Assembly (NCBI RefSeq): GCF_025136295.1
Contig: NZ_CP062788.1
Coordinates: 3,551,588 to 3,615,587 of the forward strand
DNA length: 64,000 bases
Source of the DNA: Aestuariispira ectoiniformans
GTDB taxonomy: Bacteria > Pseudomonadota > Alphaproteobacteria > UBA8366 > Aestuariispiraceae
Direction of reading: 5' to 3'
In this document: positions 31,809 through 33,794 of the stretch, in pieces
Layout of the letters: each line of letters starts with the position of its first letter
How positions within the stretch are numbered: the stretch's first letter is position 1
Translations under genes and position numbers: made by a program
The notes under the pieces: generated by a model
Told to the model about the DNA's origin: nothing
Databases searched by the model: none
What the model saw: only the letters and a program-made list of their open reading frames with translations

Positions 31809-32144
31809 TCAGTCCTGAATAGTCTTTGTCCCATCGGGACGTAATGCCGCAACCTCATCCAGCCCCAACAGGAACAAGGCGGCCTCCCCGTCGATATCGG
31901 CCGCCATCTGCGGCAACATGCGATAGGTTTTGACATTCTCCAGCCGCATCCCCGCCTTCCCGGCCTTGTCCAGGATTGCCTGCTGCTGATCGGCGATTGC
32001 CGCGCCTTGCGGCGCGCCGCTCAGCTCAATAAGAACAGACCGCATCCCGGCCTCCCCTTCCAGGTCATTGCAGGAGGTCAGCATGACCGGAAAAATGAGG
32101 ACAACCAGCGTAACGCAGGTCTTTTTCCAATATGAAATCGACAT
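31809..32144 (-). CDS. Small lipoprotein resembling a subtilisin prodomain (inhibitor I9-like)
   Basis: 111 residues from ATG 32144, chosen for GGAGG seven bases upstream. The N-terminus has a lipobox: hydrophobic run then 'VMLTSCNDL', so Cys would be lipidated after cleavage. The C-terminal 75 residues follow the I9 prodomain pattern: beta ('RSVLIELSGAP'), helix ('DQQQAILDKAGKAGM'), beta ('VKTYRMLPQMAADID'), helix ('EAALFLLGLDEVAAL'), beta ending 'TKTIQD'. Such prodomains fold and inhibit subtilases. The gene starts 11 bases after the S8 protease gene on the same strand. Inference: a separate membrane-anchored inhibitor or chaperone for that protease. Confidence 0.7.
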   Translation of the reverse strand: MSISYWKKTCVTLVVLIFPVMLTSCNDLEGEAGMRSVLIELSGAPQGAAIADQQQAILDKAGKAGMRLENVKTYRMLPQMAADIDGEAALFLLGLDEVAALRPDGTKTIQD

Positions 32145-32155
32145 AATCCGCCTCC

Positions 32156-33652
32156 TCACTGCGTAATCGCGGTCGTGCCGCTGTCGCCGCCGATCGCGCC
32201 ATCGCCATCCCCCGGCAGCGTATCCCCGCCGATGCTGATCACGCCGGTCGGTTTCGGTTGTTTCTTTTTCATCGGTTCCGGTTTGGCCGGGACGGGCTTT
32301 TTCGGCGGCTCGGTCTTTTCGGCAACCGGCGGCTTTGGCGCATCCTCCACTATTTCCGGTTCAGGCTTTTCAACGACAGCATCCGAAGCATGCTTCAACT
32401 GCAACCTGGAAACCGCCACACCATTGGCCGGGTCGGTGATCACCTCACGGGATTTCAAGCGCTGCAAAAGCTGATTTATGTTCATCCGGGGATAGGCTTC
32501 CCGCATAAGCGCGACAGCCCCGGTGACATGCGGTGCCGCCATCGACGTCCCGTCAAGCTCCATATATCCGGTTTTGCCGGGGATACTGACGGATGACACG
32601 ATGCCGACACCCGGTGCCAGGATATCCAGGTAGGACGCGCTGTTGCTGAACGCCGCCACGGCACCATGTTTATCGATCGCGCCAACACTGAAAGCACTTC
32701 CGGCGCAGGCGGGTGACGGCAGGCCATTCTTATGCCCCTCATTGCCCGACGCGATCACAAGAGCCGACCCACGGCTCAGGAAAAGCCGGGAAGCCACTTC
32801 ATAAATACTGTCGTTGCAGGGAGACTTGTAATAAGGACCGCCACCCAGGCTCATATTGACCGCGGCGATCTCAATACCGTCATCAATCATCAATCCGAGG
32901 AGATAATCGAGACCTGCGATGATATCCCGGTCGCGCGCGCCCATCTTGTCACCGGACTTGCTGAAAACATTGATGCCGATGATCTTTGCGCCCGGTGCCA
33001 TGCCACTGAATTTTCCGTTCTCTCCGGCGATAATCCCGGCCACATGCGTGCCGTGAAAATGGACGGGCCTTGCCGCGCCGGGGCCGATCATCTCCGTCTC
33101 GCCATTGGGACAGTTCGTCATGGAAAAGCAGGCCTCACGCATAACCTTGCCCGCCAGGAAAGGGTGACTGGTATCAATGCCGGTATCGAGAACCGCCACC
33201 ACCTGGCCGGTGCCGCGCCGCCCCTTCGTCCAATAATCGGTCGCGCCGACAAATCCGGCTGTATCTTTCAGGGAGATGACCTTCAATTCATCAGCATAGA
33301 CATTCTGCCCCCCACCAAAGGCCTTGGCTGCCTTAAGCGCCTTGGCATCCACACGTAACGAATTCACCCGCAGATGTTTATAGTCCCGCAGGACCGATGC
33401 CTTGCCGCCTGCCGCCTCTATCTGGCGCATCAGGGCACGATGTTCGGCCTCAACGTCGATTGCGCCGGTGACCACACTGTCCAGGTCTTCCGGGTTAATC
33501 TCCCCCGTGACCGGCTGCCAGGATGTTATCAGCACATCCACGGTGTCACCCCCCGATGCCTGGCTCATCAAGGCATCAAAGTCATCACCGAAAGCCAACC
33601 CCGGTGCCACGGCCAGGACAATGGCAGCAAAAATACTTGTGAATTTAGACAT
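32156..33652 (-). CDS. Secreted S8-family serine protease (subtilase)
   Basis: 498 residues. The signal peptide (1-22) is followed by an I9-like propeptide (about 35-128), then the catalytic domain with Asp156 ('VLDTGID'), His200 ('FHGTHVAG'), Asn304 ('ASGNEG') and Ser370 ('GTSMAAPH'). Cysteines at 175, 181, 279 and 316 may form disulfides. The last 95 residues are a Pro/Lys/Glu-rich spacer ending in a Gly/Asp-rich tail with no anchor, probably disordered. It is predicted to degrade proteins outside the cytoplasm. The tail may hold the enzyme at the envelope. It is followed 11 bases later by a separate prodomain-like lipoprotein gene, an unusual duplication of the inhibitory module. Confidence 0.93.
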   Translation of the reverse strand: MSKFTSIFAAIVLAVAPGLAFGDDFDALMSQASGGDTVDVLITSWQPVTGEINPEDLDSVVTGAIDVEAEHRALMRQIEAAGGKASVLRDYKHLRVNSLRVDAKALKAAKAFGGGQNVYADELKVISLKDTAGFVGATDYWTKGRRGTGQVVAVLDTGIDTSHPFLAGKVMREACFSMTNCPNGETEMIGPGAARPVHFHGTHVAGIIAGENGKFSGMAPGAKIIGINVFSKSGDKMGARDRDIIAGLDYLLGLMIDDGIEIAAVNMSLGGGPYYKSPCNDSIYEVASRLFLSRGSALVIASGNEGHKNGLPSPACAGSAFSVGAIDKHGAVAAFSNSASYLDILAPGVGIVSSVSIPGKTGYMELDGTSMAAPHVTGAVALMREAYPRMNINQLLQRLKSREVITDPANGVAVSRLQLKHASDAVVEKPEPEIVEDAPKPPVAEKTEPPKKPVPAKPEPMKKKQPKPTGVISIGGDTLPGDGDGAIGGDSGTTAITQ

Positions 33653-33744
33653 GAAAGCCCTTCCCCCTTACGCAACCTCGGGAGTTTATCCCGCTGTCTT
33701 CACAGATGAAAAGGCCAAGCCGCTTATCCGGCCGCCGAAAAATG

Positions 33745-33770
33745 AAAAGGCGACCGAATGGCCGCCTTTT
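33745..33770 (-). terminator. Terminator after fumarase gene
   Basis: On the minus strand AAAAGGCG (33763-33770) pairs with CGCCTTTT (33745-33752) and continues in Ts (complement of the A-rich run near 33737-33748). It is 25 bases after the fumarase stop and ahead of the subtilase gene. Confidence 0.85.
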
Positions 33771-33794
33771 CGCATTGGAGGAGATCGCCCGGCC

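Follow-up and report, generated by a model that had tools for sequence, protein, structure and literature searches.

Stand-alone proteins that mimic a family I9 propeptide have been described: POIA1, the yeast peptidase B inhibitor and Arabidopsis SPI-1, with TgMIC5 and Plasmodium SUB1-ProM as similar proteins. POIA1, the yeast protein, SPI-1 and SUB1-ProM are presented as potent inhibitors in the cited passages (PMC6993865). In Aeromonas sobria, the C-terminus of ORF2 lies at the catalytic site of the protease ASP, and the excerpted account states that ORF2 inhibits the enzyme and is thought to support its folding (PMC5638518). Myxococcus PopC is likewise a subtilisin-like protease restrained by a dedicated partner protein, PopD, which is described in the cited excerpt as blocking PopC secretion; this system is compared with ours by description only (PMC6434023). 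According to the cited part of the CspB study, the prodomain of this Clostridium protease, a bacterial S8 enzyme, stays bound and inhibits it, and works in trans when co-expressed; unlike the separate lipoprotein reported here, it is part of the protease gene (PMC3567191).

Here, we analysed a stretch of 64,000 nucleotides from Aestuariispira ectoiniformans, hereafter called the window, in which the gene of an S8 subtilase is directly followed by that of a small lipoprotein. The mature part of this lipoprotein is homologous to subtilase prodomains.

The gene pair and its close relatives

The pair and its surroundings comprise the following features, all on the minus strand.

33744-33771 (minus): terminator-like stem-loop with T-run behind the fumarase gene, consensus match only
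32156-33652 (minus): gene of the 498-aa S8 subtilase, which has a signal peptide (by eye), its own prodomain, a catalytic domain and a Pro/Lys-rich tail
33269-33586 (minus): own I9-like prodomain of the protease, about residues 23-128, placed among the S8 propeptides when its orthologues are included; no Pfam match
32459-33214 (minus): S8 catalytic domain, residues 147-398, PF00082 match
32151-32156 (minus): AGGAGG, the ribosome site for the lipoprotein, overlapping the S8 stop codon by one base
31809-32144 (minus): gene of the 111-aa lipoprotein, starting with the ATG at 32144, AGGAGG 6 nt before
32070-32144 (minus): signal peptide of the lipoprotein, read by eye, with the lipobox LTSC (Cys25)
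31812-32048 (minus): domain resembling I9 (subtilase prodomains) and ending in a free C-terminal tail, from profiles, shuffles and predicted fold

The S8 subtilase adjoining the lipoprotein gene is intact. The Pfam search places it in Peptidase_S8 (PF00082) at 1.5e-45, and it bears the motifs DTGID, HGTH, SGNE and GTSMA, with residues D156, H200, N304 and S370; D156, H200 and S370 form the Asp-His-Ser triad. The gene order on the minus strand is an SspB-like gene, fumarase, the S8 subtilase, the lipoprotein, a rarD-like transporter and a VOC-family gene, where the names of the neighbours are presumptive, given from their sequences. The stem-loop at 33744-33771 separates the pair from the upstream fumarase gene; it is one of seven terminator-like sites found by consensus match in the region, against 2.4 expected.

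The two genes are adjacent and coupled. The last base of the protease TGA is part of the AGGAGG that lies 6 nt ahead of the lipoprotein ATG, and because of this overlap the protease and the lipoprotein are very probably translated from the same mRNA. The GTG at 32159, given as the lipoprotein start in a mechanical listing of open reading frames, was rejected, since the ATG at 32144 is the codon preceded by AGGAGG at 6 nt.

Read by eye, the signal peptide ends in the lipobox LTSC at residues 22-25, as expected of a bacterial lipoprotein, and leaves a mature part of 87 aa. This part contains both the "YRMLP" and the terminal "TIQD" that the initial annotation had picked out. The residue after the putative lipid cysteine is Asn, which by the E. 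coli rule would make the periplasmic face of the outer membrane the likelier location. Seven residues follow the last Asp common with the propeptides (D-GTKTIQD), and the end of the protease's own prodomain, read alongside, is D-ELKVISL. The corresponding tail has eight residues in the lipoprotein of A. insulae and five to nine in the others (by eye). A tail of such length could fit the active-site cleft in the manner of a cleaved propeptide end, if it is placed as we infer.

A. insulae (G001; Alphaproteobacteria, Rhodospirillales by NCBI) has the same protease-lipoprotein pair ahead of a rarD-like gene. Its lipoprotein, whose lipobox reads LSAC (by eye), is 39% identical to that of the window in the matched part, and gene spacing and ribosome sites are seen in both pairs. 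When the lipoprotein was used as the query, matches were obtained in two of 14 genomes of the family and two of 43 of the order, its own genome counted. A third genome of the family, G002, has an orthologous protease, 40% identical, between the same neighbours; no lipoprotein match was found in this genome, and only about a hundred bases lie between the protease and the rarD-like gene. The G002 protease thus manages without a lipoprotein beside it. The three proteases end in TAITQ (window), TAIIQ (A. insulae) and IAITG (G002).

Homology of the lipoprotein to subtilase prodomains

Does the mature lipoprotein belong with the I9 prodomains? The most direct search, proposed in the initial annotation, gave nothing: the Inhibitor_I9 profile (PF05922 / MEROPS I9) found no lipoprotein match at E<=10. 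We therefore reject I9 membership by Pfam's own gathering threshold, and keep as a separate claim that the lipoprotein may work like I9. A direct Pfam search of the lipoprotein assigned it to no family. NCBIfam gave only DpgB (0.003, 17.5 bits against a cut-off of 140), which we take as chance. A phmmer search of solved structures gave only 7awz_A (0.00085) and 3hxj_A (0.96), both sums of short repeats with no single passing stretch. Among solved structures, a profile built from both lipoproteins found five designed TPR proteins and no propeptide.

The same two-lipoprotein profile was run on 2370 open frames of the S8 loci, some of which were counted twice. Beyond the A. insulae lipoprotein, it matched only S8 proteases at E<1, five distinct ones, and all five alignments fall ahead of the catalytic Asp. 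In the opposite direction, a profile was seeded with a single S8 propeptide from a distant genome, then iterated only over S8 N-terminal regions, with the proteases of the window, A. insulae and G002 left out; it consists of ten propeptides and zero lipoproteins. We searched this outside profile against 5405 frames, each running from stop to stop over 50 aa or more and 5333 of them non-S8, from the 72 S8 loci and five loci without detectable S8. Among the non-S8 frames, the lipoprotein of A. insulae ranked first (4.2e-7) and that of the window second (6.4e-6); the third stood at 0.0093. Five other profile builds, two of which used the same exclusions with other seeds, also rank A. insulae first and the window second among the non-S8 frames (4410 frames), with E values for the two lipoproteins from 2.4e-7 to 0.0035.

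Profile-profile comparison gave the same result. HHalign of the lipoprotein pair against seven S8 propeptides yields 96.0% (E 4.1e-9), while 100 column shuffles of either side (200 in all) reach at most 2.7% and the reversed pair 0.7%. When the seven propeptides were in turn compared with solved structures, 23 of the 28 matches listed were subtilase propeptide or pro-enzyme chains, the best being 1scj_B at 5.2e-5. Because successive profile matches link all three, the chain from the lipoprotein through the S8 propeptides to the subtilisin propeptide is closed by sequence, and the lipoprotein joins Inhibitor_I9 by homology to subtilase prodomains. Pfam I9 itself barely registers the linking propeptides, a few of which score 0.0063-0.03, short of the cut-off (one of four rows; two of seven propeptides). 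The I9 likeness of the mature part, first suggested from the letters alone, is thus real by these profile comparisons, yet too remote for Pfam.

The protease's own I9-type propeptide, likewise part of the initial annotation, is recognised through its orthologues. The outside profile finds the S8 propeptides of A. insulae (4.8e-7) and G002 (5.6e-6); that of the window is absent among the 45 matches listed and joins the propeptide family of an iterated profile once the window, A. insulae and G002 proteases are admitted. Pfam Inhibitor_I9 has no match at E<=10 in the window protease.

The fold was modelled with AlphaFold2. From the two lipoprotein rows, the prediction reached a pLDDT of 48.1. With a shallow four-row alignment, in which two rows are segments of the proteases' own S8 prodomains, the 79-residue domain reached a best pLDDT of 84.8 and pTM of 0.75 (five models, 84.8-40.4). 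The predicted order, strand-helix-strand-strand-helix-strand, is that expected of I9, with the last five residues at pLDDT below 50. Foldseek returned no match to the predicted domain at E<=0.001. VIA-align ranked subtilisin propeptides (3cnq_P at Z 8.2, rmsd 3.1, 69 aligned) and the I9 inhibitor POIA1 (1v5i_B at Z 7.5, rmsd 3.7, 72 aligned) high, tied with further proteins that have this arrangement, among them Mesd at Z 8.5 (rmsd 2.9, 72 aligned). The predicted fold therefore agrees with I9; the structure ranking alone does not single I9 out, and the sequence evidence does.

Recurrence among S8 proteases

We surveyed the neighbourhoods of 72 S8 proteases. Sixty are those of the window, A. 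insulae, G002, 17 class-level loci found with a protease profile, and 40 rows picked among the matches listed of a Peptidase_S8 search of 385 class genomes (27 of <=700 aa and 13 of 714-776 aa); the remaining 12 are 11 from a phylum sample and that of G816. The screen took same-strand frames of 50-300 aa on either side, from a 160-base overlap to 300 bases away, with a lipobox or a prodomain match. The window frame, with its larger overlap, was added by hand, and the G683 lipobox LLSTGC, missed by the pattern, was read by eye.

The protease-lipoprotein association recurs: a downstream lipoprotein with an I9-like domain accompanies five of the 72 S8 proteases (window, A. insulae, G094, G683 and G816), in five genomes of three families. 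The G683-G816 lipoprotein pair reaches 85.8% against the propeptides in HHalign, with 60 shuffles at most 0.9%; G094 is a weak case (7.3%, 60 shuffles at most 3.2%). The downstream lipoproteins of G321, G404 and L105 are not I9-like. At nine of the 72 loci absence says little, because fewer than 300 bases lie downstream of the S8 gene.

A quick-method tree built from the catalytic domains of the 72 proteases and rooted at the midpoint puts all five paired proteases in one group of 12 (support 81), inside a group of 16 (support 98). I9-like lipoprotein neighbours thus occur in five of these 12 and in none of the 60 elsewhere, eight of which have too little downstream sequence; one of the seven unpaired proteases of the group, that of G390, ends at a contig end. 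The pairing label requires three changes on the tree, and one of 500 label shuffles was equally clustered; a narrower control, in which the five proteases were set against two rows only, is uninformative (76 of 500 shuffles as low). The clustering is partly due to how the loci were discovered, because A. insulae, G683 and G816 were met through prodomain or lipoprotein queries; of these and G094, only the last was met through the protease alone. A single ancient pairing followed by losses, or pairings that arose repeatedly inside one protease group, may account for the pattern.

A mixed profile (A8), run at E<=0.01 on 369 phylum-sample genomes, had the window's own lipoprotein as its only stand-alone match, at a threshold that also misses real cases (the G683 lipoprotein scores only 0.029 among 954 frames). 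Its other 16 matches comprise ten inside S8 frames, one (G555) in a different frame that neighbours an S8, and five from loci where no S8 was detectable; we take these last five as chance. A match in G766 was dropped, as the stretch holds no S8. Another search gave 30 matches: in the 13 loci read, two (L012, L021) are S8 propeptides and 11 are not, and one further match falls within the S8 frame of A. insulae.

The survey also brought related arrangements to light. The pairs of G816 (L162 2194-17993) and G683 (L163 8-13529) sit inside a common gene cluster that, by eye, is envelope- and signalling-like, with several lipoproteins, MotA/ExbB-like and OmpA-like proteins and, in G816, also Ser/Thr-kinase-like proteins. 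Eight proteins from G683, G816 and G321 were scanned; seven have no Pfam match and one is trypsin-like. One "GEDAD" protein of the cluster has relatives beside the G321 S8 and in the window's genome, away from the window. A C-terminal tail with two Cys, ending in [IV][QK]W, is common to the trypsin-like G683 neighbour and the S8 proteases of G683 and G816 (L141 215-1462 and 2169-3617; L160 1565-3139). It is possible from their sequences that the S8 C-terminal tails serve export or sorting.

In G352 (L078 5224-5496) and G123 (L079 4800-5036), a small I9-like frame follows an S8 without recognised prodomain. As the frame has neither lipobox nor signal peptide, both were rejected as lipoprotein pairs; they are possibly cytosolic proteases with the prodomain on a separate gene. 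The G123 frame, which the neighbour screen did not catch, was identified from a weak Pfam I9 match (0.21) and by eye. In G643 (L151 4984-5391), an I9-like frame with a signal-like start lies directly ahead of a 1094-aa S8 frame, and may be a separate prodomain gene or part of a frameshifted S8; since it sits in front of the S8, it was not counted as a downstream pair.

Role of the lipoprotein and comparison with known systems

What does the lipoprotein do? On the strength of homology and anatomy, we consider it rather probable that this lipid-anchored, stand-alone prodomain homologue forms a local protease-immunity pair with the subtilase, as a trans inhibitor rather than a foldase. Since the lipoprotein resembles the enzyme's own built-in cap, it probably restrains the protease at the cell envelope, and inhibition is its most likely action. 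We propose the following course. The S8 protease would be exported, and would fold and cleave itself using its own prodomain. The anchored I9-like domain would then dock on the substrate-binding face of mature protease still in the periplasm, with its free C-terminal tail occupying the active-site cleft in the way that the end of a cleaved propeptide does. Bound in this manner, the protease would stay inactive next to the membranes of the producing cell.

The initial annotation had named a folding helper as the other option. A trans foldase needed for maturation, like ORF2 of Aeromonas sobria, would suit a gene that lies just downstream, as orf2 lies behind asp (PMC5638518, cited part), and a prodomain is able to fold an S8 domain in trans, as the cited CspB excerpt describes (PMC3567191). 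ASP, however, is propeptide-deficient according to the same ORF2 account, while the window protease has its own prodomain (PMC5638518). Furthermore, in G002 the protease occupies the same locus but the lipoprotein is missing, and only five of the 12 S8 proteases in the group are paired, the G390 contig end accounting for one of the other seven. The lipoprotein is therefore hardly needed for folding, and we regard the foldase role as very unlikely. What remains is binding of the mature enzyme, either as an inhibitor at the membrane, which we prefer, or as a tether. A tether would hold the mature protease at the membrane, as a scaffold or for secretion hand-off, without lasting inhibition, or would adjust its specificity. 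The lipobox and the predicted I9-like docking domain would serve it equally, and the cited passages on CspB show that the prodomain of a bacterial S8 protease can remain bound to the mature enzyme; the usual prodomain binding blocks the cleft, however, as those passages also report (PMC3567191), and the lipoprotein tail has nearly the length of that of a cleaved propeptide, which makes a tether unlikely. A non-functional remnant, or a domain duplicate retained by chance, would explain why the lipoproteins diverge quickly (39% identity across two genera within a single family) and occur patchily (two of 43 order genomes, absent beside the G002 S8). Two genera nevertheless retain the open frame, the lipobox, the ribosome site and the tail, and the same arrangement occurs in other families; we consider this explanation highly improbable.

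The membrane-bound inhibitor remains our preferred reading, and we extend it tentatively. One group of exported S8 proteases, found in Alphaproteobacteria and another Pseudomonadota class, might carry a dedicated lipid-anchored prodomain homologue as its immunity protein, a second and permanent copy of the prodomain fold that would police the subtilase at the membrane. Because the G683 and G816 pairs sit in a common envelope gene cluster, they may control a surface-processing machine there.

If the preferred reading is true, the prodomain fold, familiar as a part of bacterial proteases and, on its own, as eukaryotic inhibitors, has also been freed in bacteria as a membrane-anchored guard, and one protease group has a natural brake. 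Such proteins would probably be annotated as hypothetical lipoproteins because Pfam misses the domain, and the pairing would then offer a direct route to the target of small unknown lipoproteins. No bacterial lipoprotein that mimics a prodomain was found in the literature searched, a scope outside which most subscription journals lie.

Like the eukaryotic mimics, the window lipoprotein is a single I9-like domain encoded apart from its protease, and SUB1-ProM, like the lipoprotein, adjoins subtilase genes (PMC6993865, cited passages). The five named mimics are eukaryotic and the cited passages mention no lipid anchor for them, whereas here a bacterial lipoprotein is coupled to the protease gene (PMC6993865). 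As in ASP/ORF2, a small protein is encoded just downstream of an S8-type protease, a likeness drawn from the excerpted description and from gene position (PMC5638518). Unlike ASP, which needs ORF2 according to that description (PMC5638518), the proteases of A. insulae and G002, and with them that of the window, are not propeptide-deficient. The window pair thus joins features of the eukaryotic mimics and of ASP/ORF2, and adds a lipid anchor.
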